Assembly: GCA_017525875.1 (NCBI GenBank)
Contig: JAFXSG010000008.1
Location: 1-64,000, forward strand
Source of the DNA: Clostridia bacterium
GTDB lineage: Bacteria > Bacillota > Clostridia > Christensenellales > CAG-138
DNA: 64,000 nt
Direction of reading: 5' to 3'
Shown: one piece after another, positions 19,505-57,506 of the stretch
Numbering within the stretch: the first letter of the stretch is position 1
How the letters are laid out: each line of letters begins with the position of its first letter
Made by a program: the position numbers and the translations under genes
The notes under the pieces: model-generated
Database searches by the model: none
The model's input: only the letters and a program-made list of their open reading frames with translations
What the model was told of the DNA's origin: nothing

Positions 19505-19533
19505 TTGAAACCGGGCTATGATTGTGATATAAT
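19505..19533 (+). promoter_or_regulatory. Promoter of the cohesin-redoxin-pth operon
   Basis: TTGAAA-N17-TATAAT with a TGn extension (TGATATAAT). The leader is about 70 nt. Confidence 0.85.
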
Positions 19534-19612: not shown

Positions 19613-20581
19613 ATGAAACGACTGTTTTCCCTTTTCGCCGCGCTCGTTGTCGCGGCAGCGCTCGTCCTTTCCCCGGCCGTGCACGCAGAACAGGGCGGTA
19701 TCTTCACACTGTCCGACGCGAGCAATATCTCCCCCGGCCAGACCTTTGACGTCACGCTTTCCATTTCCGGCGACTATGCAGTTCACGGAATGAACCTTTC
19801 CATTGAATACGACCCCACCGCGCTCGTGCTCGAAAGCTGCACTAACGGCGATTTTCTGGCGAGCCTTTCGAGCCAGGGTCAGTTCTACGTGCTCGACGCG
19901 ACCACCCTGGCGAATGCCGGCATGGTCAAACTGGCCGTCATCTGCCCGGTGAACCCGGTCTCCGGTTCGGGCGAGCTGTTCACCATGCATTTCCGCCTCA
20001 AGGACGGAGTGACCGTAAATCAGCAGGTCATCATGGTCGTTCACGAGTTCATCCTGCTTCCCGTAGGCAGCACCGAAAAGACCAACGTCCCGTTCACGAC
20101 CGATAACTCCATCATCACCGTCACCGGCGGCAGCACTCCGGAAGGCGGCTACAACGAGGGCGGTTCCGGCATCGGCGACAATATCTCCGACTCTCCCGAG
20201 TACCCGACCCGCGAGCCCGACGATCCCGATGCGAACGTGACTCCCGCTGTCGACATCACTCCGGAGCCTGACTACCACGCTACCGCCGCTCCCCAGTCCG
20301 CCGCTCCGTTCGACACCGTCGAACCCGCGCAGACCGGCGAGCCCGAGCCCGGTGAGACCGACGCTGCCGACACCGAAGCCCCGGACGGCACCGCCGAAGT
20401 GTCCGAGACCGACGACGCAAAGCCCACCGCAGAACCCGACAAAGCAGAGAACGTCACCGAAGAGCCGGACGATCCCGGTCGGAACGGCAAAAAGAACCTT
20501 GTCCTTCCCATCGTGATCGGCGCAGTTGTCTTGCTCGGCGCGGCGGCAGCTGTTCTCTTCGCCCGCGGCAGGAAGAAATAA
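19613..20581 (+). CDS. Membrane-anchored single-cohesin surface protein
   Basis: A 322-residue surface protein. It begins with a signal peptide (LFAALVVAAALVLSPAVHA). A cohesin-type domain follows at about 28-175, showing ISPGQTFDVTLSISG, MNLSIEYDPTALVLESC, GMVKLAVICP and GELFTMHFRLKDG; these match the beta strands of type I cohesins. Next is a long linker rich in Pro, Glu, Asp and Thr (about 180-295). A C-terminal membrane helix (LVLPIVIGAVVLLGAAAAVLF) ends in a basic tail RGRKK, with no LPXTG sortase motif. Cohesins bind dockerins, and five dockerin proteins occur in this window, one of them in the next gene. It is therefore probably the surface anchor for those proteins. AAGGAG precedes the ATG by 8 nt. 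The fold call is from pattern, not a search. Confidence 0.8.
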   Translation: MKRLFSLFAALVVAAALVLSPAVHAEQGGIFTLSDASNISPGQTFDVTLSISGDYAVHGMNLSIEYDPTALVLESCTNGDFLASLSSQGQFYVLDATTLANAGMVKLAVICPVNPVSGSGELFTMHFRLKDGVTVNQQVIMVVHEFILLPVGSTEKTNVPFTTDNSIITVTGGSTPEGGYNEGGSGIGDNISDSPEYPTREPDDPDANVTPAVDITPEPDYHATAAPQSAAPFDTVEPAQTGEPEPGETDAADTEAPDGTAEVSETDDAKPTAEPDKAENVTEEPDDPGRNGKKNLVLPIVIGAVVLLGAAAAVLFARGRKK

Positions 20582-20672
20582 GCCCTGCCGATCCGTCGTT
20601 TTGCTGCAGTTTACGTCTGCCGCTCGAACGGTGCAATACTTCACGCGAGCTGCACCCAAAGGAGGGAGCCTA

Positions 20673-21638
20673 ATGAAAATGCAGAATACCCGACCCGTCC
20701 GGAGCAGGTTCCGGGCAGGGTTCACAGCGATCATATTAGCCGCGGCAATGCTGCTCACGGTCTTTTCGCCGATCACAGCCTCCGTTTTCGATGAGGCCGG
20801 CGCGAAGAACGCCGTCGGGCAGGATATCTCCGCCTTCAGCACCACCGATATTCACGGCAATGCCGTGAACGGCAGCGTGCTTTCGGATGCGAATCTTATC
20901 GTTATCCATTATTTTGCGCTCTGGAGCCCCGACTGCGTCCGCGAGATGGACTATATGCAGGATGCAATGGAGGAGTTTGAAAGCAGCGGACTGCTCGTTC
21001 TCGGACTTCTTCACGAGGACTCCGCGAGCACGCCCGAAGCCTGCGCCGCCTTTATGGAGGAGAACGATTACACCTATACCGTGCTCCGCCAGGACAGCGT
21101 GCTTTCCGCAATGGTTTCGGAATACCCGATGATACCGCAGACCTTCATCGTGTATCCCAACGGCATCGTTGCCGATCATTTTCCCGGCAGCTTTGAGAGC
21201 TATTCCCAGCTTGAGGAGCTCATCTCTTCGCTGATCGGCAGCTTTATCCCCAACCACACCGTGCGCTTTTACGACGGGCTGACCTACCGCCTGATACTGC
21301 GCGTTTCCGTCCCTCACGGGCATGACGCCGAGCCGCCCGAGCCGCCCTATCATCCCGGCTACGTTTTTGCAGGCTGGGTCGGAGATTATCATAACGTTAC
21401 CGAAAACAGGGACATTAAAGGCGTTTACACCATCGACCCGGATTACTACCAGCCCGGCGACGTCGATATGGACGGCAGGCTCACGATATCCGACGCGGTC
21501 ATGGTGATGCGCTATACGATGGGCATCTATTACTCAGACGGCGTTCTGATGTTCGGCGACGCTGACGGCAACGGAACGATAGACGTCGCGGATGCGCTTT
21601 TGATCATGCGCGCAGCGCTTGGTCTTTCCGGCGTCTGA
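20673..21638 (+). CDS. Secreted redoxin (TlpA/AhpC-like) with bacterial repeat and dockerin
   Basis: A 321-residue secreted protein. It has a signal peptide (AGFTAIILAAAMLLTVFSPI) and a thioredoxin-like redoxin domain at about 45-190, including IPQTFIVYPNGIVADHFPG. A Listeria/Bacteroides-type repeat follows (HTVRFYDG...YVFAGWVGDY, about 195-255). A C-terminal dockerin has two calcium loops (GDVDMDGRLTISDAVMVMR and GDADGNGTIDVADALLIMR). The active-site motif is W84-S-P-D-C88: the first cysteine of WCxxC is serine, so ordinary disulfide chemistry is unlikely. The ATG at 20673 is chosen because AGGAGG lies 8 nt before it; a longer upstream frame has no signal. It lies directly after the cohesin gene and is probably its partner. 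Confidence 0.85.
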   Translation: MKMQNTRPVRSRFRAGFTAIILAAAMLLTVFSPITASVFDEAGAKNAVGQDISAFSTTDIHGNAVNGSVLSDANLIVIHYFALWSPDCVREMDYMQDAMEEFESSGLLVLGLLHEDSASTPEACAAFMEENDYTYTVLRQDSVLSAMVSEYPMIPQTFIVYPNGIVADHFPGSFESYSQLEELISSLIGSFIPNHTVRFYDGLTYRLILRVSVPHGHDAEPPEPPYHPGYVFAGWVGDYHNVTENRDIKGVYTIDPDYYQPGDVDMDGRLTISDAVMVMRYTMGIYYSDGVLMFGDADGNGTIDVADALLIMRAALGLSGV

Positions 21639-21666
21639 CCGGCATTATTGAGATCCGGAGCTTAGA

Positions 21667-23532
21667 ATGTTTGTTATCGTCGGGCTCGGCAATCCGGGCC
21701 GAGAATATGAAAAAACGAGGCATAATGCGGGTTTCATGACGCTTGACGCGATCGCCGATAAGCTCGGCGTTTCCGTCACGCGCAAGGGCTTTCGCTCCGT
21801 TTACGGCGAATGCCGTGTCGGTTCGGAGCGCGTAGTGCTCGCAAAGCCCGAGACCTTTATGAACAATTCCGGCTTTGCCGTATCCGACCTTTTGAACTGG
21901 TACAAGCCGGATCACGATCATCTGCTCGTTATCTATGACGACATCGACCTGCCCTGCGGCGGCATCCGCATCCGCTCAAACGGCTCCGCGGGCACCCATA
22001 ACGGGATGCGCTCCATAGACGAACAGCTTGGGTTTGAGGACTTCCCGCGAATCCGCATCGGCATCGGGAAGCCCGAACACGGGCTTATCGACCACGTGCT
22101 CGGCGTTCCCTGCGAAGAGGACGCGAAGAAGCTGCGTGAAGCGTTCTCCGCCGCGGCGGAAGCGGCGCTGATGATCGTTCGCGGCAGGATCGACGAGGCG
22201 CAGACCAAATTCAACTATAAGCCTCCGAAGAAGGAAAAGCCCCGGAAGAACGGTCATGAAAAGCACGATCCGCTGTGCTGCCGCCCGTCCGAAGACGTTT
22301 CCCTTCTCGGCAGCGGCGCGGAGCTGTTTTATAAGAACAAAGAACTTCTGCCCACAAAAGAAGCGCTTGGCGCACTGCCCTATTCCATGGCGGACGTACT
22401 GGGCGCGGAGGCAAGGCTCGCGCGGTTCGCTCCGCTTATCGCGCGGCTTTTCCCGGAGACGGCTGAAAACGGGGGCGTTATCGAATCGCCCCTCGTCGAA
22501 ACGCCGACGCTTTTAAAAGCGCTCGTTTCCCATTCCGGGGCCGGCAAAAACGCGCAGCCCGGCAGGCTTTTCATCAAGCTCGATTCGCTGCTCGCGGTCG
22601 CAGGCTCCGTCAAGGCGCGCGGCGGTATCTACGAGGTGCTCAAGCACACCGAAACGCTCGCCATTGAAAACGGGCTCCTTAAGCCCGGCGACGATTATTC
22701 AAAGCTTGCGGACTGCCGCGATTTTTTCTCGGACTACACCATACAGGTCGGCTCCACGGGCAATCTCGGACTCAGCATCGGCATCTCCGGCGCGGCGATC
22801 GGCTATAAAACGATCGTGCACATGAGCGCGGACGCGAAGCAATGGAAGAAGGACCTGCTGCGCAGCAAGGGTGTGACCGTGATCGAATATGCCTCCGATT
22901 ATTCCGAGGCGGTGAAGCAGGGCCGCGCGCTTTCGGGCGCCGATCCGAAGAGCTATTTTGTGGACGACGAGAACTCGCTCGACCTGTTCATGGGTTACGC
23001 GGTCGCCGCGCTGAGGCTTGACCGCACGCTGCGCGAGCGCGGCATCGTTATCGATGAGCGGCACCCGCTCTGCTGCTATCTCCCCTGCGGGGTCGGCGGC
23101 GCGCCGGGCGGCATCACTTTCGGGCTCAAGCTGCTGTACGGCGACAACGCGCACTGCTATTTTGTTGAACCCGTCAACGCGCCGTGCATGCTTGCGGCGC
23201 TTACCAAGGGCGAATGCGTGCATATTTCAGAGCTCGGTCTCTCCGGCAAGACGGACGCGGACGGGCTCGCGGTCGGCGCGGCGTCCAAGCTCGTTTACAG
23301 CACCTGCCGCCATCTTATAAGCGGCGAGTTCACAGTGGACGACAGCAGGCTGACGCCGTTCGTTCGGATCGTTCACAGCACGGAGCACTTGTTTATCGAA
23401 CCATCCGCGGCAGCATCGCTTGCGGGCTATATCGGCCTTATAGCGAACGGTGCGCCGAAGGACGCCGTGCATATCCTATGGGCTACGGGCGGCGGGCTCG
23501 TCCCGGAGGAAGAGCGCAGGCGCTATATCTGA
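21667..23532 (+). CDS. Fusion of peptidyl-tRNA hydrolase and D-serine ammonia-lyase
   Basis: A 621-residue two-enzyme protein. Residues 1-187 are a complete Pth: GLGNPGREYEKTRHNAGF (catalytic His and Asn), KPETFMNNSG, IYDDIDLPCG (catalytic Asp) and GTHNGMRSI. Pth cleaves peptidyl-tRNA. After a basic linker (PPKKEKPRKNG, about 190-202) comes a nearly complete D-serine dehydratase (DsdA). Its motifs are the PLP lysine Lys316 in AGSVKARGGIYEVL, VGSTGNLGLSIGISG, VHMSADAKQWKK, LPCGVGGAPGG and LWATGGGLVPEEE. DsdA deaminates D-serine to pyruvate and ammonia. There is no stop or frameshift between the parts, and I found no internal start with a ribosome binding site in the DsdA frame. About 20 N-terminal residues of DsdA are missing compared with the E. 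coli enzyme. Pth normally occurs alone; this pairing is unusual. Confidence 0.88.
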   Translation: MFVIVGLGNPGREYEKTRHNAGFMTLDAIADKLGVSVTRKGFRSVYGECRVGSERVVLAKPETFMNNSGFAVSDLLNWYKPDHDHLLVIYDDIDLPCGGIRIRSNGSAGTHNGMRSIDEQLGFEDFPRIRIGIGKPEHGLIDHVLGVPCEEDAKKLREAFSAAAEAALMIVRGRIDEAQTKFNYKPPKKEKPRKNGHEKHDPLCCRPSEDVSLLGSGAELFYKNKELLPTKEALGALPYSMADVLGAEARLARFAPLIARLFPETAENGGVIESPLVETPTLLKALVSHSGAGKNAQPGRLFIKLDSLLAVAGSVKARGGIYEVLKHTETLAIENGLLKPGDDYSKLADCRDFFSDYTIQVGSTGNLGLSIGISGAAIGYKTIVHMSADAKQWKKDLLRSKGVTVIEYASDYSEAVKQGRALSGADPKSYFVDDENSLDLFMGYAVAALRLDRTLRERGIVIDERHPLCCYLPCGVGGAPGGITFGLKLLYGDNAHCYFVEPVNAPCMLAALTKGECVHISELGLSGKTDADGLAVGAASKLVYSTCRHLISGEFTVDDSRLTPFVRIVHSTEHLFIEPSAAASLAGYIGLIANGAPKDAVHILWATGGGLVPEEERRRYI

Positions 23533-23589: not shown

Positions 23590-24933
23590 ATGTCAAAGTA
23601 TTTCGGCACCGACGGTTTTCGCGGCGACGCGAACGTCAATCTGAACGTTGAGCATGCGTATAAGATCGGCCGTTTCCTCGGCTATTACTACGGGCGTGAA
23701 CACCGCGCGAGCATCGTTATCGGCAAGGACACGCGGCGCAGCGGCTATATGTTCGAATGCGCGCTGACGGCGGGCCTTACCGCGAGCGGCGCGGACGTGT
23801 ACCTTATGCACGTCACCACCACTCCGAGCGTGAGCTACATCACCAGGATGGACGATTTCGACTGCGGCATCATGATCAGCGCGAGCCACAATCCTTACCA
23901 CGACAACGGCATCAAGCTGCTGAACACGAACGGCGAGAAGATGGAGCAGTACGTTATCGACGAAGTTGAGAAATACCTTGACGACAACGGTCCGGATATC
24001 CCCTTCGCTACGGGCGATATGATCGGCAAAGCCATCGACTATTCCGCCGGGCGCAACCGCTATATCGGCTACCTGATCAGCCTTGCGACCCACTCCTACA
24101 AGGGCGTGCGCGTCGGCCTCGACTGCGCTAACGGCAGCACCTGGATGATGGCGAAGAACATCTTCGAAACGCTCGGCGCCGAGGTCAGCGTGACCGGCAA
24201 TACCCCGAACGGCCTCAACATCAACGACGGCGTTGGCTCCACCCATATAGAGAACCTGCGCCGCCTCGTCATCGGCAGCAAGCTGGATATCGGCTTTGCC
24301 TTCGACGGCGACGCGGACCGCTGCATCGCGGTGGACGAGGAGGGCCGCATAATCGACGGCGACCTCATCCTGTATATTTACGGAAAATACATGAAGGACC
24401 GCGACAAGCTGGCGAACAATACGGTCGTGACGACGGTCATGTCCAACTTCGGCCTGTATAAGGCGTTCGACCGGGTCGGCATCAACTACGAGCAGACCGA
24501 CGTGGGCGACAAATACGTTTACGAATGCATGCGCAAAAACGGGCATCTGATCGGCGGTGAGCAGAGCGGACACATCATCTTCAGCAAATACGCGGCGACC
24601 GGCGACGGGCTCCTGACCGCGATCAAGCTGATGCAGGCGATGCTGGCGCAGAAGCAGCCCCTTTCCGTGCTTGCCGCTCCGGTCAGGATCTACCCGCAGA
24701 TCCTCAGGAATATCCGCGTTGCCGACAAGGACGCGGTGCTCAAAAACGAGGCCGTCCTGCGCGCTGACAAGGAGGCGAAGGAGGAGCTCGGCGCGAACGG
24801 CAGGACGCTGCTGCGCAAGAGCGGCACCGAGCCGGTCATCCGCGTTATGGCGGAGGCGCCGACCAACGAAGAAGCGTCAAGAGCCGTGGAACACATTATC
24901 GAAGCGATACGCCGCGAAGGACTTGCGCTTTGA
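23590..24933 (+). CDS. glmM: Phosphoglucosamine mutase
   Basis: A 447-residue mutase that converts glucosamine-6-phosphate to glucosamine-1-phosphate for peptidoglycan precursors. The phosphoserine loop is MISASHNPYHDNGIKL (Ser99). The magnesium loop is FDGDADRCIAVDE, the sugar-binding loop GGEQSGHII, and the phosphate-binding loop LRKSGTEPVIRVMAE. The length is that of standard GlmM. It lies 57 nt after the Pth-DsdA fusion and 18 nt before the GlmU-like acyltransferase, so two consecutive steps of UDP-GlcNAc synthesis are adjacent. AGGGGGAATAATC precedes the ATG. Confidence 0.95.
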   Translation: MSKYFGTDGFRGDANVNLNVEHAYKIGRFLGYYYGREHRASIVIGKDTRRSGYMFECALTAGLTASGADVYLMHVTTTPSVSYITRMDDFDCGIMISASHNPYHDNGIKLLNTNGEKMEQYVIDEVEKYLDDNGPDIPFATGDMIGKAIDYSAGRNRYIGYLISLATHSYKGVRVGLDCANGSTWMMAKNIFETLGAEVSVTGNTPNGLNINDGVGSTHIENLRRLVIGSKLDIGFAFDGDADRCIAVDEEGRIIDGDLILYIYGKYMKDRDKLANNTVVTTVMSNFGLYKAFDRVGINYEQTDVGDKYVYECMRKNGHLIGGEQSGHIIFSKYAATGDGLLTAIKLMQAMLAQKQPLSVLAAPVRIYPQILRNIRVADKDAVLKNEAVLRADKEAKEELGANGRTLLRKSGTEPVIRVMAEAPTNEEASRAVEHIIEAIRREGLAL

Positions 24934-24951
24934 TCTGAAAGGAGAATGAGT

Positions 24952-25644
24952 ATGTACACAAAACAGCAGCTTCTTGAAATGGATATCGAGATCAAAAACC
25001 TTTTCTCGCTCACCCACACCCGCGCGGCGGCGCTGTTCGAGGGGATCAAGTACCCCTGGGAGGCGCTGGCGGGCATCAAAGAGATGATCCTGAAGATCGG
25101 GCCGACGCTGCCCGAGGATGAGTTCGACCACCCGAAGGAGGACGTTTGGATCGCTAAGGACGCTGTCGTTTACCCCACCGCATGGATCAACGGGCCATGC
25201 ATCATCGATCACGGCGCCGAGGTGCGCCACTGCGCATTCATCCGCGGCAGCGCTCTTATCGGGCGGGACTGCGTCGTGGGCAACTCCGTTGAGCTCAAGA
25301 ACGTGATCCTTTTCGACAACGTGCAGACCCCGCATTACAATTACGTGGGCGATTCGATCCTCGGCTACCGTGCGCACATGGGCGCGGGCAGCATCACCTC
25401 GAACGTCAAGAGCGACCGCAGCGACACGGTCGTGCGCGTGGGCGAGACGACGATCGAGACCGGGCTGCGTAAGTTCGGCGCGATGATCGGCGACCAGGCG
25501 GAGATCGGCTGCAACACGGTGCTGAACCCCGGGACGATCGTTGGCCGTGCGAGCACTGTCTACCCCGTTTCCTCCGTCCGCGGGACGGTGCCTGCGTACG
25601 CGATCTATAAGGATGAGGACAATATCGTTTTTAAGATGAAGTAA
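24952..25644 (+). CDS. Left-handed beta-helix acyltransferase, GlmU C-terminal-like
   Basis: A 230-residue protein with hexapeptide repeats of a left-handed beta helix, such as VWIAKDAVVYPTAWI, GRDCVVGNSVELKNVI and IGDQAEIGCNTVLNPG. These resemble the acetyltransferase half of GlmU (GAGSITSNVK, NPGTIVGRASTVYPVSSVRG). The N-terminal pyrophosphorylase half of GlmU is absent; only about 60 helical residues precede the helix. Its neighbour is glmM, so it may acetylate glucosamine-1-phosphate or a related sugar nucleotide. The ATG at 24952 gives 7-nt spacing from AAGGAG; the ATG at 24946 is too close. It is the last gene of the plus-strand run, followed by a terminator. Confidence 0.82.
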   Translation: MYTKQQLLEMDIEIKNLFSLTHTRAAALFEGIKYPWEALAGIKEMILKIGPTLPEDEFDHPKEDVWIAKDAVVYPTAWINGPCIIDHGAEVRHCAFIRGSALIGRDCVVGNSVELKNVILFDNVQTPHYNYVGDSILGYRAHMGAGSITSNVKSDRSDTVVRVGETTIETGLRKFGAMIGDQAEIGCNTVLNPGTIVGRASTVYPVSSVRGTVPAYAIYKDEDNIVFKMK

Positions 25645-35859: not shown

Positions 35860-37455
35860 TTACAGCAGGCCCATGGATACCCGCATGACGAGCAGAGCGT
35901 CCGCGATCGTGATCTCGCCGTCGCCGTCTAAATTGCCCGCCGCAAGCTGTTCGTCGGTCAGTGCGAGAAGTCCCATCGAAGCGCGCATGATGAGCAGAGC
36001 GTCTGCAATGGTGACGTCCCCGCTTGCGTCGACGTCGCCGCTGCCCGGCGCGCAGGGCTGAGGTGTGAAGCGGGCGATCAGCTCCGCTTCGCCGACGGCC
36101 GTGACCTCGAAGCTTGCAGTCTCAGCGAGCAATTCTCCCGCGGCGCTGTACCAGCCGAGGAATTCGGCTCCGCTTTGCGGCACCGCGTAGACGAAGCCTC
36201 TTGAATAATACTGACCGTAGTTCAGATAGCAGCCGATATTTCCCCTGCCCTCTGCACGGATCAGATCCGGATGCAGCAGCGGATTTGCGGAGAGATCGAG
36301 CGCAGTCAGCGCTGTGTCCTGGCAGCTAAGTGAATACAACAGCGGATTTGCGGAGAGATCGAGCGCGGAAAGAGGATTGGAGGAGTAATCCAGCGTTTGG
36401 AGTTCACTGCAGCATGAAACAACCAGCTCCCGGAGCATGTTGCGGGCACAAACAAGCGTTCTGAGCGCAGAGCAGCCGGAAAGGTCGAGCTGCGAAAGCA
36501 GGTTGCCGCCGCAGTACAGCAATTCAAGCGAGGTATGCCCGGCGACACGCAGTTCATCAAGCCCGATGCTTTCACAATCGAGGATGACAAGCGAGGTATT
36601 ATTCGCAATATCGAGCCGATCGAGGAAATTGCTGCCGCAGCACAGCTCTGTGAGGGACGTGTTGTTTGAAACGTCCAGCTCCGAAAGCCCGCAGTAGCTG
36701 CAGATGAGGCTCGTCAGCGCGGTGTTGTTTGAAACGTCAAGCTCCGAAAGCCCGTTATAGCCGCAGCACAGGACTTCGAGCGAAGTGCAGTCCGAAACGT
36801 CAAGCGTGTCGAGAATGTTTTCATGGCAGCGCAGTACCCTGAGCGAGGTGCAGCCGGATACGTCAAGCTGCCTGACGCTGCCGCCCCAGCAATACAGTTC
36901 TTCAAGAGAGGCAAGGCCGGAAACGTTCAGAGACGTTATGTTGTTCACCTTGCAATCCAGACGGGCGAGCGAGCTGCAGCCCGTAACGTCGAGCGCGGTC
37001 AGCCGGTTTCCTCCGCATAAGAGCTTCGTGAGCGCAGTGCAGCCGGACATATCGAGCGGGCTTGCAAGGACGCGCTCATACGACCAGTCATGATCGCAAA
37101 CGTCGACCGAAACGATCCTGAGCTCGCCGCCGACAGGCGCCCATTCAAACCGAGGCTGTCCTTCTTCGACCGGCTCCCCGGTCTCTTCGTAATAAAAGCC
37201 GCCCAGCGTTCCCCACGTTTCCGGATCGTCCGGGTCGTAGTCACTGCTCAGCTTTTCACCGTTTTTTTCGCCGGATGGATCCGTCTGCTCGAGAAAGGTC
37301 ACACATTTATCGTAATCATGCTCGTTGTAGCCTGCGGGCACTGTCCGATCGGCGGGAGCCGCGGCTTCCGAGCTTATGAAGGAGATCGGCAGCACAGTGT
37401 ATGCCAAAAACAGCGCGGTGATCAACGCGGCTGTTTTAATGAGTCCGTGTTTCAT
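35860..37455 (-). CDS. Secreted leucine-rich repeat protein with dockerin
   Basis: A 531-residue secreted protein. The signal peptide is at 1-32. The central part (about 140-390) is twelve consecutive 21-residue repeats of the form SLxxLxCxxNxLxxLDVSxNT, each with a cysteine at the same place in the first ten. Next comes a bacterial repeat-like domain (AEFLGWYSAAGELL, near 425). A dockerin ends the chain with two calcium loops, GDVDASGDVTIADALLIMR and GNLDGDGEITIADALLVMR. LRRs usually bind proteins or glycans; the dockerin should attach this protein to the cohesin at 19613. It has its own promoter and is not in an operon. Repeats and dockerin are clear; the ligand is unknown. Confidence 0.88.
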   Translation of the reverse strand: MKHGLIKTAALITALFLAYTVLPISFISSEAAAPADRTVPAGYNEHDYDKCVTFLEQTDPSGEKNGEKLSSDYDPDDPETWGTLGGFYYEETGEPVEEGQPRFEWAPVGGELRIVSVDVCDHDWSYERVLASPLDMSGCTALTKLLCGGNRLTALDVTGCSSLARLDCKVNNITSLNVSGLASLEELYCWGGSVRQLDVSGCTSLRVLRCHENILDTLDVSDCTSLEVLCCGYNGLSELDVSNNTALTSLICSYCGLSELDVSNNTSLTELCCGSNFLDRLDIANNTSLVILDCESIGLDELRVAGHTSLELLYCGGNLLSQLDLSGCSALRTLVCARNMLRELVVSCCSELQTLDYSSNPLSALDLSANPLLYSLSCQDTALTALDLSANPLLHPDLIRAEGRGNIGCYLNYGQYYSRGFVYAVPQSGAEFLGWYSAAGELLAETASFEVTAVGEAELIARFTPQPCAPGSGDVDASGDVTIADALLIMRASMGLLALTDEQLAAGNLDGDGEITIADALLVMRVSMGLL

Positions 37456-49064: not shown

Positions 49065-52000
49065 TCAGTTGATGTTCATTACGGCGCGCATGTAGAGCAG
49101 CGCGTCGACAGTGGTGACTTCGCCGTCGCCGTCAACGTCCATAAGGGCGATCTGCTCATCGGTGTAGTTGCCGATGTCCATAGCATAGCGCATGATGAGC
49201 AGAGCATCCGCAGTGGATACCTGGCCGTCGCCGTCGATATCCGGGAGGGTGGGGCCCGGGGTGACGACGATCTCTGCGCGATTCCTGACGCGGATACGCG
49301 GGATGAAGCCGCCGTTCACGTCCTCGGTATCGACAGTGATGGAAGCAAGACCGATCGCGGAGACGTGGTCGCCGACGCTGATCTCGATGACGTAATCGCT
49401 CATGATGTAGCCGTCGATGAACACGCGGGCGGTGCCGGTGCCGTCGTTGACCATGATGGTCTCGAGCGCGCCGTCGGAGGAGTAGCCGAGGCTCTCCACG
49501 GTGCCCTCGACCTTGATCAGGGTGCCGGTGTAATCGGTGCTCATCGCCTGCTCCGCAGTCAGCTCGAGAGGCTCGATGACCATTTCATCGTGGCCCTCGA
49601 CGGCCTCGATCTTGGTCACAACGAGCTCGCGCTCGCCGTTGTAGGAGCCGGTGACGCCGGTCACACGGACGTACTGGCCGATGTGGAAATCACCCGCGAC
49701 CGGGAAGAGGTTGATGCCCGCGGTCTCATCCTGGATATAGATGCAGTCGAAGAACGCGGTGGTCTGATCGTAGCCGGAAGCGTTGCTGGTGACGTAGCCT
49801 TCTACCGTGAACTTCAGGCCCTCATCCGCTGCGTTGACATCTGCGATCGGAGTGATCTCCGGCTCGGGGATGAGCTTGTGGATGATGTTCATGACGATCT
49901 GGTAGTTGCTGTTCTGGAGGGTGGTCGCGTTCTCGATCTCGACCTTGACTTCGAAGGTGGAGAAGAAGGTGACGCCGGAGGTGATGAGCCAGCCGCCGCC
50001 CTCAAGGTCCTCGAGGGTCATTTCAACGACCTCGCCCATCGGGACGACGACGGTGTCGTTCTCGTAATCCGGGACGTAGCTCGACGAGCCGCCGAAGTCA
50101 GCGGTGTAGTTCGCGCCCCAGGTGGTGGAGTAACCCTTGATGATCGGGATAGCGTTCTCGCCGGCGATAACAGGCGCGCTGTTGTAGCCGGAGAAGCTGT
50201 TGTTGGTGGTCTCAAGGACGTCCGTAAGCAGCCAGACGGGCTCGCCGTTCCAGGTGTAGCTGTAGTTATCCTCGGAGGTGAAGTAGATGCGGTACGCCTC
50301 GTTTGCCTTCTCAACGTTATCGACTACGATACCGTTTGCAATGGTGGTATCGGTGCCGATCGCCTCGAGGATGCCGTTGGTGATGGTGTGCGCCTGCTCC
50401 GCGATGTTCGCCGGATTGCCGCGGTCGGACTTACTGCAGACGATCAGGTTGCCGCCGTTTGCCGCGTACTCGGCGATGGCTTCAAGCTCCGCCTCGGTGT
50501 AGAGGTTCGCCTCGCCGACGTTCTCCCAGCCCATGTACGGGACGGTGAGGACGACGAGAGCGTAATCCTTGATGTTTTCATAGGTCAGCTCGCCCGCGTA
50601 GATGTAGTTGGTGCGGATAGCGTTCTGAGCGCAGAGCTCGATGAACGCCGCATCGCTGCCGGCGTAGTTGCCGCTGACGTAGAAGTTGATGTGGCCGTAG
50701 TCGATACCGATATCGAGCAGCTCGCTGGGATCGAGGACCTCCATCTCGTAGGTGTAGGTGAACTGCATGTAGGTCTCGCCGAGGTAGCCGCCTGCGGTGA
50801 CGATGAACTTCTGCGCGCCGAGGGTGGTGGGCGTGAAGTTGTAGGTCAGCTCAAGCTCGCTGTCCGAAGCGATGGTGCCGGGGTTCTCGACGACGCCGAG
50901 GACGACCGCATCGTTCTGACCGACTGCAAGGGAGTAGGTGATGTTTTCGATCACGAAATCATCCGCCTCATAGTCGTAGAGGGTGGTGGTGAAGGTCATC
51001 TCCTCGCCCTTGACGGGGATGATGGTCGGGGTGGTGACGTCGGAAATGCCGACCTTGGACACGTCGCCGACCCAAACGGGCGCGGTAACGGCGATGTCGC
51101 CGTCAGCCTGCTCGACGCGGATGAAGTAGTAGGAGTAGTCGTTCGGGAGGGCGACGTTCACGATCGCGGTGCTCGAGGAGAACTCCTCAGTGTATGCGGT
51201 GAGACCGCCGTTGACGATGACGGAGATCCTGCCGATCGCTTCGCCGTCGGGATCGTTCGCGGAGGCGTAAATGTTGACAGCCTCGATCGGGTCTTCTTCA
51301 TCCTCGGGAATGATGGTGCCCATGATGGAGTCGTTCAGAGAATAGTAGATCTCAAGGTTCTTATCCTCTGTTGCATACATGGTCATGCTCCTCATTGCGG
51401 CATACAGGCCTTCCTCGCTGAAATCATCGGTGATGATGACGTCGCGGGCGGTGTTTGCATTGCCCCAACGGCCCTTGTGGTTATCCTGGTTGTTGGTGGG
51501 AGCGACGTGCCAGCCCATATCGAGCGCGAGGGTGTACTGCTCGTAGCTGGGCCAGTATGCGCTGCCGCCGATGGCGCCTTCACCGTTGCCGACCTCGACC
51601 ATGGTGATGACGCGGTCAGCCGCAACGTCGTAGTAACCGAAGTTATCGAAGTTGCCGAAGGTGGTGCCGGGGTGGTTGAACTGGTGGATGGTATCGGGGT
51701 ACTGCTTGATCAGGTCGTAGTAAGCGACGAGGCCCGCGCCGCCCTGAACGGTGTAAGTGCTGTTCTGGCGGGAAACGATACCGGTGGAGTTGAAGGTGTT
51801 TATATGGCCGTACTGGCCGGACCAGGTCATCTCATAGCCGCCGATGAAGATAACGTCGTTCTGGCGGGTGTTGAAATCATCGATCGTGGTGGTGTAGTTA
51901 TACCACTTGGAATGGCCGTTCGCCGCGGTGATACCGGACTCAACGTCCTCGAAGTCGCCCAGATGGGTCTTATCGTCGAAGTAGTTGGAGTGGTCGGTGA

Positions 52001-55000
52001 GGGCTACGAAATCGACGTTCTCGCTCTCCGCGAGGCCGGTGACGTAGCTGAACGCATCCTCGATGGTGCCTGCGCCGTCCGAATACTCGGCGGTATGGGA
52101 GTGGAGCTGACCGAAGTAGAAGCTGTAACGAGGCTCGCCGACGGTGAAGTTCCAGCTGTAGGTGACGGAAACGCCGTCCGCACGGGTGATGGTCACGCTT
52201 GCGGTGTACTTGTTGTCCTCAAGCTCGCCTTCATAGGTGAAGACTGCGGTCTCGCCGTCAATGACGGTCTCGCCGTCAACGCCGTCGACGGTGATCGCAA
52301 CGGTGGGCTCTTCGCCCGCGTTTGCGAAGGTCACGCTGATGACGGGGGTCTTATCGTCATAAGTGGCGGAGTTCGGGGCGGGCTGCACGGAGACGATCTG
52401 AGGCTCGTCCACGATCGCGATCTCGGCAGTCTCGGTGGTCACAAGACCGCTGGTGTCGGTCGCGACGAAGGTGAGGCTGATGACCGCGTTGCCCGCGGTG
52501 ATCGCGGCGCCGGGCACGGTGCCCTTGTACTTTGCGCTCGCGGTGTTGTAGGTCATTTCGACCTCGCCGGAGGTTTCGCCGCAGACGTACTGCATGACGA
52601 CGGAAGCGATGCCGTAATCATCGGTCACGGCGACGGCCACGTCGTAATCAACGCCGACCTGCGCGTCGAGGAAGCTGCCGACGGTGATAACGGGCGCTTT
52701 GTTCTCGCCGTAGTATTCGCCGCCGCGGAACTGCCAGGTCGAGGAATACCTGCTGAGAGCTGCGCAAAGGTCGACGACCTCGCCCTCGGAAACGCAGAAG
52801 CTCGTGTAGGAAGCTGCGCGGTAGATGGGCATCGATGCGCCGGTGCTGTCGGTCACGTAGGTGTTGCCATTGTCGTTATAAGCACCGAGGGTGACTCCCC
52901 TGACCATGACGTATTCGCTGAGCAGGTTCTCCCTGTTTGCATTGAGCTCTGCGAAGGTATTGAAGGGCTGAGCGGGGATGCGGTCAGCATGACCGAGCTT
53001 TACGACCGCGGTCGCGCTCTGGATCTGCGGGACGCCGCCGTAGGTGGTCTTGGTCGCGCTGATCCTGAGGATGTCGCCGATCTCGTAGTCGTCGAGGGAG
53101 TTATACATCTGCAGGCCGTAGATCTCGCCGTCGATGATGTCCTCGAGGATAGCGGAGTTGACGGAATCGTAGTTGCCGAAGCGGTAGACGAGCTGCGCGA
53201 TAACGACGACTTCGGCAGAATCTGCCGCGGCGATGACCTGCGGGATGGTCATATCGGTCTCGGTGAAGAGATCGTCCGGGATCGGGTCATTGAACACGAT
53301 GTGCCCGGTGACATCCGAAGCCTGCGCAACGCGGAGCTGCGGGTCGTTGTAGGCGGAGACGATCGCGATCATGTCCACGCAGTCGCCCTCGACGAACTCG
53401 GTCTCGGGGATCTTATAGACGTTGATCTCGGATTCTTCCTGGGTGATCGGGGTGTTGCCGCTCGTGTTGATCGCGCCGAGGGTGACGCCCTCGAGCTTGA
53501 CGCGCTCGCACATATATGCGTCGGGAGCTGCGAGGATCTCTGCGAGGGTGACGGTCTCAAGGGGCAGAGCGTTGCCGTTCGATACGATCTTGAACTGCTG
53601 CTCATTGGTCGCGTCGATGCCGGAGAGCTCGGGAAGGCCCTTGAAGGTCGCCCTTGAACCGGTGGCCTCGACCATGTCGCCGACGGCGACGGTCTCGCTT
53701 GTCGCATTGAGGTACAGCACGATCGCGCCGGTGGCATCCTGAACGTAGACGTTCCTGTTGTCGATGAAGGTGACGACGCCGCGCACGGTGGCGGAAGCGC
53801 CGGTCTCGAGCGCGAGCGCTTCGGCGATGTCGATATAGGAGACGTTGGTGACGACGTAGTCCGTGGAAGCGCCGTTGCGGAGCTGGACAGTTGCGTTATA
53901 GCGGGATGCGACCGCGTAAACGTCCACTGTGTCGCCCTCGGAAACTCCCTCGGGGTAGGCTGCCGCGCGGTAGATGGGCATCGTTGCGCCTTCCGCGTCG
54001 GTAATGTAGGTGGAACCGCTGGAAGCATACGCGCCGAGGACAGCGTCCTTGATGACGACGAACTCGGAGAGATAATCCGCGATGTTCGCGTTGAGCTCCG
54101 AAAGAGTGACTTCCTGCGCAGCCATGGGCTCCGCTTCCGCGTCGAGCACGGTAACGGCGGTCACGTTTGAGAGCTGGCGGACTTGGCCGTAATCGCCGAC
54201 GGTGCCGGTCACGGCAACGATGTTGCCGACGACGTAGCTTGCGGTATTGGTGTAGTCATAGATCTGCAGGCCGATGATCTCGTTGTCCTCGACGTCGCCA
54301 AGCGCGATCGAGTTGAGGCTGCCGAAGTTGCCGAACTTCATCGTGACCTGGCCGACGACGGTGACGGTACCGCCGGTCTGGGTCATTGCGAGCACGTCCG
54401 CAATGGTGGAATAATCCGGATAATCTGCGGGATCGATCGGATCGACGAGAGGAAGGACGACCTCAACGTCCTCCGCGGCGGCAACTCTGAGCTGCACGCT
54501 GTTGTAGCAGGAGACGACAGAGGTGACGTTCACGTTGTCGCCTTCGACTGCGGTGACAGTGGGGATCCTGTAGATGTTGACACTGCTTTCGCCCTGGGTG
54601 ATCGGGGTGTTGCCGGAGGTATTGACAGCGCCGAGCACAGCGTTCTTGACGATGATGCGCTCGCACATATAGTCGGCGGTGTTCGCAAGCAGAGCCTCGA
54701 TCGTGACTTCCTCAAGGGGAAGCTCGTTGCCGTTTGAAAGCACGGCAAACTGCTCCGCATTCGTGCCGTCGATGCCGGAAAGCTCGGGCAGACCCTTATA
54801 GGTGGCGCGCTTGCCGACGGCCATGACGGAATCGCCGATCGCGACGCCGGAAGCGTTTGCGTTAAGATAAAGGTCGATGCCTGCGGTCTCATCCTGGACG
54901 TAGACGTTCCTGCCGTCGATGAAGGTGACGGTGCCGATGACACAGATGCCCTCGATGTTGTCTGCCGCGGCAATGGCTTCCTGTATGGTGACGTTGTTAT

Positions 55001-55706
55001 ACGGATCCTCGGTGGGTTCCGCAGTGGGGCCCGCGGTGGGGTCGGGTTCATCGGTGGGGTCGGGTTCATCGGTGGGGTCGGGTTCATCGCCGATCGGGTC
55101 GCCGGTGACGGTGAGGTCGTCCACGCGGCAGGTACCGCCGGACGCGATCGTGCCGTTGCCTGCGCTCACGGTGTCGTTAACGACGAATCGGAGCACGACG
55201 GCTTCCGCACCGTTCGCATCCTCGGGCAGCGTGCCGGTCAAGGTGCCGAAGGTCCCGGAAGCAAGCGCGACCGTCGCACCGCTGACAGCGATGAAGTTCT
55301 CGCCGTCAACACTGTAATACAGCTTGATGTTCTTCGGGCCTGTGCCGGATGAACGGAACGAAGCGGAGACGGCCAGGTTCTCATAGCCGGACGCGTTCAC
55401 CGTCGCGGTGTAGTACTTGGGAGCTGTTGCGGATGCGCCGTCCCAGTACGAGGAGCTGAGTGCTTGTCCGCTGACGCCTGCGGGATAGGTGAACGCGATA
55501 TCGGTGCTCTCCCTTGTTACCACAGCGCCTGCGTTATTGGCGTTTGCGGTCGTGGCGGTGTTGACTTCTGCATCGAAGTTCCAGCCAACAACGGTCTCGC
55601 CGCGCATAGGAACTGATATCTCCTTTGCGAGGGACGAGACGGGGAGCAGCGAAACGGTCATCAGCACCGCAAGCAGCAGAGCATAAAATCGTTTAGCTGT
55701 TTTCAT
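49065..55706 (-). CDS. Giant secreted PHP metallohydrolase (CehA/McbA-like) with OB-type repeats and dockerin
   Basis: A 2213-residue secreted protein. The signal peptide is at 1-27. A beta-sandwich follows to about 200, then a linker built on three DEPDPT repeats (206-224). Next are four OB-type modules of about 190 residues in an A-B-A-B order (about 239-1004); A copies share TFIDGRNVYVQD and KGLPELSGID. An Ig-like part precedes the PHP-type metallohydrolase (about 1190-1460) with GQLHSHTAEYSDG, ALTDHSNYFDDK and NNQDNHKGRWG. A GATase-like segment (about 1667-1790), another OB domain (from about 1949) and a dockerin (from about 2154: DIDGDGQVSTADALLIMR, DVDGDGEVTTVDALLYMR) end it. It may hydrolyse a phospho- or carbonate-type substrate outside the cell; none can be named. 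It stands alone with its own promoter. Confidence 0.85.
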   Translation of the reverse strand: MKTAKRFYALLLAVLMTVSLLPVSSLAKEISVPMRGETVVGWNFDAEVNTATTANANNAGAVVTRESTDIAFTYPAGVSGQALSSSYWDGASATAPKYYTATVNASGYENLAVSASFRSSGTGPKNIKLYYSVDGENFIAVSGATVALASGTFGTLTGTLPEDANGAEAVVLRFVVNDTVSAGNGTIASGGTCRVDDLTVTGDPIGDEPDPTDEPDPTDEPDPTAGPTAEPTEDPYNNVTIQEAIAAADNIEGICVIGTVTFIDGRNVYVQDETAGIDLYLNANASGVAIGDSVMAVGKRATYKGLPELSGIDGTNAEQFAVLSNGNELPLEEVTIEALLANTADYMCERIIVKNAVLGAVNTSGNTPITQGESSVNIYRIPTVTAVEGDNVNVTSVVSCYNSVQLRVAAAEDVEVVLPLVDPIDPADYPDYSTIADVLAMTQTGGTVTVVGQVTMKFGNFGSLNSIALGDVEDNEIIGLQIYDYTNTASYVVGNIVAVTGTVGDYGQVRQLSNVTAVTVLDAEAEPMAAQEVTLSELNANIADYLSEFVVIKDAVLGAYASSGSTYITDAEGATMPIYRAAAYPEGVSEGDTVDVYAVASRYNATVQLRNGASTDYVVTNVSYIDIAEALALETGASATVRGVVTFIDNRNVYVQDATGAIVLYLNATSETVAVGDMVEATGSRATFKGLPELSGIDATNEQQFKIVSNGNALPLETVTLAEILAAPDAYMCERVKLEGVTLGAINTSGNTPITQEESEINVYKIPETEFVEGDCVDMIAIVSAYNDPQLRVAQASDVTGHIVFNDPIPDDLFTETDMTIPQVIAAADSAEVVVIAQLVYRFGNYDSVNSAILEDIIDGEIYGLQMYNSLDDYEIGDILRISATKTTYGGVPQIQSATAVVKLGHADRIPAQPFNTFAELNANRENLLSEYVMVRGVTLGAYNDNGNTYVTDSTGASMPIYRAASYTSFCVSEGEVVDLCAALSRYSSTWQFRGGEYYGENKAPVITVGSFLDAQVGVDYDVAVAVTDDYGIASVVMQYVCGETSGEVEMTYNTASAKYKGTVPGAAITAGNAVISLTFVATDTSGLVTTETAEIAIVDEPQIVSVQPAPNSATYDDKTPVISVTFANAGEEPTVAITVDGVDGETVIDGETAVFTYEGELEDNKYTASVTITRADGVSVTYSWNFTVGEPRYSFYFGQLHSHTAEYSDGAGTIEDAFSYVTGLAESENVDFVALTDHSNYFDDKTHLGDFEDVESGITAANGHSKWYNYTTTIDDFNTRQNDVIFIGGYEMTWSGQYGHINTFNSTGIVSRQNSTYTVQGGAGLVAYYDLIKQYPDTIHQFNHPGTTFGNFDNFGYYDVAADRVITMVEVGNGEGAIGGSAYWPSYEQYTLALDMGWHVAPTNNQDNHKGRWGNANTARDVIITDDFSEEGLYAAMRSMTMYATEDKNLEIYYSLNDSIMGTIIPEDEEDPIEAVNIYASANDPDGEAIGRISVIVNGGLTAYTEEFSSSTAIVNVALPNDYSYYFIRVEQADGDIAVTAPVWVGDVSKVGISDVTTPTIIPVKGEEMTFTTTLYDYEADDFVIENITYSLAVGQNDAVVLGVVENPGTIASDSELELTYNFTPTTLGAQKFIVTAGGYLGETYMQFTYTYEMEVLDPSELLDIGIDYGHINFYVSGNYAGSDAAFIELCAQNAIRTNYIYAGELTYENIKDYALVVLTVPYMGWENVGEANLYTEAELEAIAEYAANGGNLIVCSKSDRGNPANIAEQAHTITNGILEAIGTDTTIANGIVVDNVEKANEAYRIYFTSEDNYSYTWNGEPVWLLTDVLETTNNSFSGYNSAPVIAGENAIPIIKGYSTTWGANYTADFGGSSSYVPDYENDTVVVPMGEVVEMTLEDLEGGGWLITSGVTFFSTFEVKVEIENATTLQNSNYQIVMNIIHKLIPEPEITPIADVNAADEGLKFTVEGYVTSNASGYDQTTAFFDCIYIQDETAGINLFPVAGDFHIGQYVRVTGVTGSYNGERELVVTKIEAVEGHDEMVIEPLELTAEQAMSTDYTGTLIKVEGTVESLGYSSDGALETIMVNDGTGTARVFIDGYIMSDYVIEISVGDHVSAIGLASITVDTEDVNGGFIPRIRVRNRAEIVVTPGPTLPDIDGDGQVSTADALLIMRYAMDIGNYTDEQIALMDVDGDGEVTTVDALLYMRAVMNIN
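55035..55088 (-). repeat. Three perfect 18-bp tandem repeats in the giant gene
   Basis: GGTGGGGTCGGGTTCATC on the plus strand, three exact copies, encoding the DEPDPT linker. Exact DNA identity suggests recent slippage, and copy number may vary between strains. Confidence 0.92.
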
Positions 55707-55757
55707 TGGTTCCTCCCGTTATATTTGCGCAGAAAAAGCGCATATTAAGCCTTTTTA

Positions 55758-55763
55758 ATCATA
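55758..55763 (-). promoter_or_regulatory. Extended -10 promoter of the giant gene
   Basis: Minus strand TGGTATGAT; no good -35. The leader contains a small TGCGC/GCGCA hairpin. Confidence 0.5.
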
Positions 55764-55866
55764 CCACAATTCAGTTCTTTTCGCCATAGCAGATTTGCCA
55801 ATATAAGACATTTTTTCAAAATATTTATTTTGGCCGCTCCCCCCGCTTTTCCGTTTTCGGGCAACA

Positions 55867-55895
55867 GAAAACCGCCGGGCAGGCTGCCCGGCGGT
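55867..55895 (-). terminator. Terminator of dockerin paralog 1
   Basis: A perfect 10-bp stem ACCGCCGGGC / GCCCGGCGGT followed by TTTTCTGTT on the minus strand. Confidence 0.9.
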
Positions 55896-55912
55896 CCGAC
55901 TGTGTTCTTTTA

Positions 55913-57400
55913 TTACGCAAGAGAATCGATGATATCCATAGCGTAGCGCATGATGTAGAGCGCATCGGTGGAATCAAGCGCGCCGCTTGAGTTCACATCG
56001 CCTGCGAGGATCTGCTTTGCGCTGAACGTACCGATGCCCATTGCGCCGCGCATAGCAAGAAGAGCATCCTGTATGTTGACTTCGCCGTTCAGGTCGGTGT
56101 CGCCGAGAAGTACGTATTCGGCGTGGACTTCCATATCGGTGTTGACGTGGCTGAAGTCCTGATCCCAGCCGTAGAACAGCCAGGTGCCGTTTTCGTTGTT
56201 CACGACAGAAGGCGCTTGCGGGGCTGTCGCTGCCTGGCCGTGGCCGACCGTCACTTCCTCGATCAGCTCACCGTCAATACCGTAGAAGGAAACGGTGTGC
56301 TCGGCGGAGGGATCGCCGCCCTGGATCTTGAGAGCCGGGAGATTGTTATTGTCGGGGTTGGGAGCGGTGGCAAAGTTGCCGTCCGCGAAGGTGCCGATCA
56401 CGAGCTCGGGGCCTTCCGCAAGTTCGCTCTGCCCGGAGTTGCGAAGCTGAAGGACCTTGGAAGCCGGGAACTTCGTGGTGGTCAGATAGACCGACTCGAC
56501 GCCCGCACCGATCTTCAGCGAGCCGACGTAGCAAAGCGCCTGCGCGGTGCTGATCGGGGTGGAGACGACCTCTAAGGTGCCGCTCTCGATGACGCAGCTC
56601 AGATATGAATAGATGCTGTTCGTGCCTGCGTTGATCGTGACGTGGCTGCTGCCGGTGATGCGGATCCTGCCGAAAACGACGTGGATGCCTTCCGCATTGT
56701 TCCAGAGGTTGTTCGCGCTGTTCAGGTTGATGCTGATATTCGTGTTGTCGATGAGGCACTCGTTGCAGTTCTCCTCATTGACGCCGCCGATCGGAGTGAC
56801 GCCCTGCATCCAGATCGCTTTGGTGCCGTCGTAGATGTTGATCGTGGCGTTGTGGAACTCGATCGCGTGGTTGGCAAAGATTCCTTCTTTGATCGCGGAG
56901 GCGGTGTTGTTCGTGCGCTCTTTGGAATGGATATTGACGGTGATATCGTTGATATAAAGGAATTCGGAATTGTCGTTTTCGCCGCCGGTCGGAACGCTGA
57001 TCCCGCGGCCATGGTTCTCGATGGCGTAGATGTTGAGCGTGCCGCTGCCCTCGATCTTGAGGTAGCCGTCGTAGCTGCCGCTGAGCACGTCGCAGGCCTC
57101 ACCCATGCAGGCGTTATCGAGGTAGCAATCGCCGTTCACGATGATCTTCGTGTTTGCGGGAACGAGCACGGGAGCGCTGTGCGCGGCCTCGGTGCCGTAG
57201 TTCGTGAGCGTGAGGAGCGGATTGCCGCTGTCGCCGGTCGGGTTATACGCCCAGCCTTCGGCTGAGTTCGAAACTGCCGAGGTGACCGTGGTCAGATCGA
57301 GCTTTTCGGTGCGCTGGGACGCTGCCTTGGTCTCAGCGCCTGCCGGGATCGCGGCAAGGACGAGCATCGCCGCGAGCAGAACTGCAAAGAATTTTTTCAT
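55913..57400 (-). CDS. Secreted beta-helix-like protein with dockerin, paralog 1
   Basis: A 495-residue secreted protein with a signal peptide (FAVLLAAMLVLAAIPAGAE). A long beta-rich part (about 30-340) has repeated short strands such as GYLKIEGSGTLNIYAIENHG, FLYINDITVNIHSKE and ATINIYDGTKAIWMQG, as in carbohydrate-binding beta helices. Next is a Listeria/Bacteroides-type repeat (HTVSFYGIDGELIEEVTVGH...LFYGWDQDF, about 370-425). A dockerin ends the chain: DTDLNGEVNIQDALLAMR and GDVNSSGALDSTDALYIMR. It is about 50% identical by eye to the next gene. I recognise no catalytic residues. It has its own promoter and terminator. Confidence 0.85.
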   Translation of the reverse strand: MKKFFAVLLAAMLVLAAIPAGAETKAASQRTEKLDLTTVTSAVSNSAEGWAYNPTGDSGNPLLTLTNYGTEAAHSAPVLVPANTKIIVNGDCYLDNACMGEACDVLSGSYDGYLKIEGSGTLNIYAIENHGRGISVPTGGENDNSEFLYINDITVNIHSKERTNNTASAIKEGIFANHAIEFHNATINIYDGTKAIWMQGVTPIGGVNEENCNECLIDNTNISINLNSANNLWNNAEGIHVVFGRIRITGSSHVTINAGTNSIYSYLSCVIESGTLEVVSTPISTAQALCYVGSLKIGAGVESVYLTTTKFPASKVLQLRNSGQSELAEGPELVIGTFADGNFATAPNPDNNNLPALKIQGGDPSAEHTVSFYGIDGELIEEVTVGHGQAATAPQAPSVVNNENGTWLFYGWDQDFSHVNTDMEVHAEYVLLGDTDLNGEVNIQDALLAMRGAMGIGTFSAKQILAGDVNSSGALDSTDALYIMRYAMDIIDSLA

Positions 57401-57427
57401 TTTGTTACCTCCTTAGGTGGTGATTCT

Positions 57428-57455
57428 ATTATATAACAATCCGGTAGGCTGTCAA
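57428..57455 (-). promoter_or_regulatory. Consensus promoter of dockerin paralog 1
   Basis: Minus strand TTGACA-N16-TATAAT. AAGGAGG follows close to the ATG. Confidence 0.9.
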
Positions 57456-57465
57456 GAACGCAAAA

Positions 57466-57500
57466 TGAAAAGAGGAGACCGCCTATGCGCTCCCCTTTCG
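57466..57500 (-). terminator. Probable terminator of dockerin paralog 2
   Basis: An imperfect stem GAAAGGGGAG / CTCCTCTTTTC with a T-rich end (TTTTCATTTTG) on the minus strand. Confidence 0.5.
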
Positions 57501-57506
57501 CTTTGA

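Follow-up and report, generated by a model that had tools for sequence, protein, structure and literature searches.

Peptidyl-tRNA hydrolase (Pth) is essential in known bacteria and is normally a free protein of ~190 aa. In a 64,000-nucleotide stretch of DNA from a Clostridia bacterium, hereafter called the window, one open reading frame joins it to D-serine ammonia-lyase (DsdA), which raises the question of whether this fusion is real, how it arose, and whether the two enzymes have anything to do with each other. Both enzymes are already known; their combination in one protein is the variant.

Domains of the fusion protein

21667..23532, + strand: pth-dsdA fusion gene, 621 aa (frame, Pfam and NCBIfam profiles, relatives)
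21673..22215, + strand: Pth domain (PF01195), residues 3-183, with N9, H19, D92, and N112 present
22228..22395, + strand: linker, residues 188-243, read as a lysine-rich former Pth tail and then the DsdA leader; overlaps the start of the DsdA match
22306..23526, + strand: D-serine ammonia-lyase domain, residues 214-620, with the PLP lysine 316 at 22612-22614

The frame comprises 621 codons, from an ATG at 21667 to a TGA at 23530-23532, with zero internal stops. Pfam analysis of its N-terminal part reports a match with Pept_tRNA_hydro that covers the entire profile (E 2.6e-64, 216.9 bits against a cut-off of 27; residues 3-183), and the NCBIfam pth model (TIGR00447) returns 184 bits against a cut-off of 100. 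The C-terminal part is assigned to D-serine ammonia-lyase by NCBIfam (TIGR02035/NF002823, residues 214-620; 524.7 bits with a cut-off of 246 and 504.3 bits with a cut-off of 368.25), and a Pfam PALP match covers residues 294-594 (E 1.7e-37). An earlier note on this DNA had described an in-frame fusion of Pth and D-serine ammonia-lyase, a description borne out by the single 621-aa frame in which both profiles score above their curated cut-offs; it had placed the junction at ~188-203, which agrees with the present analysis, and the DsdA profile match starts at residue 214. Residues N9, H19, D92, and N112, the catalytic Asn, His, Asp, and Asn of Pth, are identical in every aligned row covering those positions. 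In the DsdA half, K316 lies in a GS[VI]KARGG motif and GSTGNLG spans residues 362-368; the former is the PLP lysine, found here at the position that the earlier note had given, and the latter the DsdA loop. The key residues checked are invariant in all rows covering them, except glycine 481, which is an alanine in one relative (genome G001). The best solved relatives of the Pth half are peptidyl-tRNA hydrolases (4qt4, 4yly, and others), the listed Pth chains measuring 186-222 aa with one of 171, and those of the DsdA half are the D-serine dehydratases 3r0x, 6aa9, and 3ss7 (residues 239-621 or 234-621). Both halves look active, and both activities are probably kept because each enzyme is intact and shows purifying selection.

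The window's own genome (G000) is an assembly of 2.49 Mb in 53 contigs that is 92% complete. A search of this assembly for a second pth, a check proposed in the earlier note, found none: it holds one PF01195 place and one match to the protein. Nor was a second DsdA found there (one TIGR02035 place, E up to 1e-60).

Occurrence, surroundings and origin

The carriers of the fusion are one group of uncultured gut-type bacteria, and the fusion is common to most of this group. It is present in 10 of the 11 genomes of the genus (g1), in nine of them whole and in G001 as a pair of pieces at contig ends, both spanning the junction, and the other whole copies are 62-70% identical to that of the window. 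Each genus genome with the fusion has one Pth place, except G001 with its two pieces. A stop lost or a frame shifted by faulty sequencing or assembly might be suspected in a draft genome of many contigs; however, the fusion is no such artefact, because ten of eleven genomes carry it in frame at this identity and with junctions of different lengths, and we treat an error as ruled out for all practical purposes. The eleventh genome, G005, has separate adjacent pth and dsdA genes with a spacer of 61 bases (31% G+C). The neighbours of the fusion in the window are as follows.

19613..20581, + strand: gene of a cohesin-domain protein, conserved upstream neighbour (Pfam)
20670..21638, + strand: gene of an AhpC/TSA-dockerin protein, ending 28 nt before the fusion starts (Pfam)
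23590..24933, + strand: glmM, 57 nt downstream of the fusion, conserved neighbour (NCBIfam)
24946..25644, + strand: gene of a hexapeptide-repeat acyltransferase-like protein, conserved neighbour (Pfam, NCBIfam)

At the genus loci examined, the cohesin, AhpC-dockerin, glmM, and hexapeptide genes flank both the fusion and the unfused pair of G005; G001 has them distributed over a pair of contigs, and the contig of G007 ends before any cohesin gene is reached. In the four other genomes of the family that were checked (G020, G034, G048, and G056), pth is on one contig and glmM on another. The explanation that we consider probable is that neighbouring genes were fused to give a tethered bifunctional protein, composed of two independent enzymes whose co-production is fixed. 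In an ancestor of the genus, dsdA would have followed pth immediately, as it still does in the unfused order pth-dsdA-glmM of G005; once the pth stop was lost, the frame would have continued through the lysine-rich tail of Pth, across the spacer, and on into dsdA.

The GlmM tree places the fused G004 outside G005 (91/92), and the Pth tree alone leaves the order of these two genomes undecided. A combined tree of RpoB, GlmM, and Pth again puts G004 outside G005 (80/78), with a support of 76/76 when DsdA is added. The AU test weakly rejects the ten fused rows as a monophyletic group (p-AU 0.019), and G004 is a long branch. Given this placement of G004 and the weak rejection, either G005 split a fused gene secondarily or fusion took place in parallel in G004; a single fusion dating from after the divergence of G005 is less likely.

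A strong promoter-like site at 19505-19533, 5' of the cohesin gene, is the nearest such site on the strand of the fusion. The scan returned 8 promoter-like sites versus 2.8 in shuffles and nothing decisive for the fusion. Because the strong site lies before the cohesin gene, expression of the fusion from a pth promoter of its own is only conjectural, a point against the explanation given above. Two side observations concern the neighbouring genes. Besides the cohesin protein, the window encodes several proteins with dockerins, one of them of 2213 aa (19613-21638, 35860-37455, and 49065-59003), and together these suggest a cellulosome-like system. In G010, the glmM gene beside the fusion matches as three pieces in different frames (G010:C50:22552-23901), possibly owing to a sequencing frameshift.

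Among 391 genomes sampled from the class and 398 from the phylum, no Pth-DsdA fusion was found beyond that of the window's own genome (matches at E up to 1e-70 in 50 of the 391 and 29 of the 398). The search for other chains with both domains, another proposal of the earlier note, therefore succeeded within genus g1 and came to nothing in the class and phylum samples. Among the best 80 of 528 named relatives, the junction is crossed in one frame by L041, L042, and L043 only, and the match of L044 spans two separate genes; these four are probably the same records as G010, G001, G003, and G005, and not extra cases. Two candidates for other Pth fusions were rejected, the long frame of G082 being a G+C-rich upstream extension without another domain and the Pth of G093 (193 aa) being separate from the next ORF of 1141 aa. 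No plasmid record covers 80% of the fusion, and four cover 80% of Pth plus linker. Near dsdA, no Pth-like frame was found in 76 loci of other organisms, up to 3 kb on each side, and an ancient pth-dsdA operon is rejected on this ground. Pfam analysis of the ORFs nearest to dsdA covered 50 of the 74 upstream ORFs and 43 of the 74 downstream ones (left out were 21 upstream and 26 downstream on the opposite strand, and 3 and 5 short ones); Pth is absent from the 25 commonest of the 54 upstream and 48 downstream families beside dsdA.

The linker and possible internal starts

Counted from the motif NYK in Pth to RFAPLI (or a variant) in DsdA, the junction measures 62-78 aa and is always in frame (11 sequences, 10 genomes). 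Over six pairs, which are not independent of one another, the pN/pS of the linker is 0.08-0.66, and its third codon position is the most changed in each pair, narrowly so in three. In five of the six pairs the constraint on the linker is weaker than that on the domains, yet it is coding-like, and these patterns indicate that the linker evolves in the manner of a coding region. In 17 of the 17 free Pth proteins of the family examined, that of G005 included, the Pth fold is followed by a low-complexity tail that is rich in lysine and often becomes acidic farther along; for this reason the linker is most naturally interpreted as a tail inherited from Pth, after which come the former spacer and the DsdA leader. 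Its poor conservation suggests that the domains work independently.

21657..21660, + strand: GGAG, a Shine-Dalgarno (SD)-like word six bases 5' of the pth start

Alternatively, the frame could yield two proteins, with DsdA arising from an internal start or by cleavage and the fused frame being incidental. In the window, the sole in-frame start codon between the end of Pth and the PLP lysine is the ATG of residue 241 (22387), which has no SD-like word and lies 27 residues within the DsdA profile match. The G001a piece has no in-frame start up to its end, and the codon constraint on the linker also argues against two proteins. On the other side, an SD-like word precedes an in-frame TTG in 2 of the 11 junction sequences (G004 and G001b). 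The earlier note had reported a basic linker without stop or frameshift, as we find, and no internal start with a ribosome-binding site; the latter statement holds as well, but it makes a weak argument. Among the nine whole fusions of the genus, the pth start passes the SD word test in two (G000 and G010) and fails it in seven, and by the same test no SD-like word precedes the separate dsdA of G005 (L033). The absence of an internal ribosome-binding site therefore says little, and the two-protein explanation gains from the fact that starts of this kind are evidently used here. Of the starts of window neighbours, two of the four tested pass; starts in the genus may often go without an SD-like word. 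Taken together, we consider two proteins improbable. The tethered protein would instead exist as a single polypeptide in the cell, with both activities and steady expression.

Function, other DsdA fusions and comparison with known systems

In the tethered protein, the Pth half, which is the only Pth found, would recycle peptidyl-tRNA, and the DsdA half would break D-serine down into pyruvate and ammonia, serving either detoxification or nutrition. As its most likely effect, the fusion would fix co-production, with DsdA made whenever Pth is and not separately controlled. The earlier note had seen a possible link between D-amino acids and translation. Such a coupling, in which Pth would carry DsdA to the place where D-serine enters translation as a form of D-amino-acid quality control, would fit a fusion to the only Pth found that is kept over most of the genus. 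However, all 11 genus genomes retain the D-aminoacyl-tRNA deacylase (DTD), the known safeguard against D-aminoacyl-tRNA, and on the same count the idea that a loss of DTD prompted the fusion is rejected. The poorly conserved linker also speaks against coupling, as do other DsdA fusions that have no evident link with translation. In the accessible text of two reports, D-serine is described as toxic because it interferes with the synthesis of pantothenate and L-serine (PMC6522883, PMC6393727), and the second of these, in that text, sees the breakdown of D-serine in its organism as more likely nutritional than detoxifying (PMC6393727). As far as the accessible part of a third report goes, PTH acts on N-acetyl/peptidyl-L-aminoacyl-tRNA and is inactive on aldehyde-modified D- and L-aminoacyl-tRNA (PMC10942605). 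From the toxicity route described in these texts, the substrate range of PTH, and the presence of DTD throughout the genus, tethered independent enzymes are therefore favoured. The link seen in the earlier note found no support in these data, nor in the joining of DsdA to unrelated enzymes elsewhere or the lack of Pth-like frames at the 76 dsdA loci, and we regard coupling at the tRNA as very improbable; joint working of the two halves is unproven. Retention over most of the genus is longer than might be expected for a purely neutral fusion, which counts against the reading that we prefer.

Within the family, DsdA is fused in 22 of the 34 DsdA-bearing genomes, all from two lineages; the remaining 12 are G005 and 11 genomes with frames of 415-536 aa, which were left out of the domain scan. 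In a second genus of the family, g25 (L125-L129, L275-L281), all 12 DsdA proteins found carry a C-terminal Nudix domain, and in seven of them a DNA_alkylation (AlkD-like) domain comes next in the same frame. Of the five without it, three (G048, G382, and G1213) have the AlkD-like frame separate and directly downstream, and in G034 and G1210 no AlkD-like sequence was found in the stretch examined. An adjacent-to-fused series for DsdA-Nudix and AlkD is thus seen in g25, which speaks for the fusion of neighbouring genes as the origin of the Pth-DsdA protein too. Nudix is N-terminal to DsdA in L046:2437-4278 and L099:2419-4278, both from metagenome-assembled genomes titled uncultured Clostridiales (RUG isolates). 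A ThiD-type (Phos_pyr_kin, phosphomethylpyrimidine) kinase is N-terminal to DsdA in one genome, that of Candidatus Bariatricus faecipullorum (L048:2134-4260), and a GNAT acetyltransferase domain in another, in a single frame (L231:1498-3246, - strand). As a rough control, the 52 DTD matches in 61 relatives lie in frames of at most 235 aa, save one of 330 aa (G001). A quick tree of 80 selected DsdA rows unites g1, g25, and g11 in one clade (SH-aLRT 100). Since this clade includes g11 (G020), whose frame measures 415 aa, the best reading is that fusion to Pth and fusion to Nudix happened separately on a single DsdA lineage. The recurrent role of DsdA as a partner in fusions is more surprising than the join to Pth itself. 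In a literature search made mostly without subscription papers, we found neither a description of such a role in Bacillota nor a report of a Pth-DsdA or DsdA-Nudix fusion.

These partners could reflect an adaptive house-cleaning module, in which selection joins DsdA to clean-up enzymes for the co-expression or co-localisation of damage control: Pth would deal with trapped tRNA, Nudix with damaged nucleotides, and the AlkD-like domain with DNA alkylation, and the ThiD-type kinase may serve PLP supply. The recurrence of partners speaks for it, with Pth in 10 of 11 genomes of g1, Nudix in 12 of 12 of g25 (seven with AlkD) as well as in L046 and L099, and Phos_pyr_kin and GNAT in addition, and so does the proportion of fused DsdA genomes in the family when set against the short DTD frames. 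However, the 22 fused cases represent two lineages only, the theme is loose, GNAT having no clear fit and the kinase and GNAT fusions coming from one genome each, and the neighbours of dsdA vary in other organisms. We hold this module to be possible but unlikely; if true, D-serine, nucleotide, and tRNA damage would share stress conditions. A related proposal, that DsdA is a house-cleaning fusion hub with several independent joins in Bacillota and that genus g1 recruited to it its only, presumably essential Pth, seems to us distinctly doubtful. It would make the protein a steady clean-up device for D-serine and peptidyl-tRNA, both activities of which matter under the same stress. The fusion offers a test case for whether joining two unlinked pathways is adaptive or simply does no harm. 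Pth evidently tolerates an extra C-terminal load, because the lyase fusion is kept across most of the genus.

Compared with bacterial Pth (PF01195/TIGR00447), the fusion has the entire profile, the catalytic residues, and the status of the only copy found in the genome in common; bacterial Pth is a free chain, whereas that of the fusion bears a 400-aa enzyme at its C-terminus. The fusion likewise resembles DsdA (TIGR02035/NF002823; 3ss7) in passing both cut-offs, in its match to 3ss7 (E 5.6e-114), and in its PLP lysine and glycine-rich loops, but DsdA has a free N-terminus where the fusion has Pth. With the other DsdA fusions (g25, L046, L099, L048, and L231), it shares the in-frame join to an unrelated enzyme. 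The partners are different, however, and in g25 the partner sits C-terminally.
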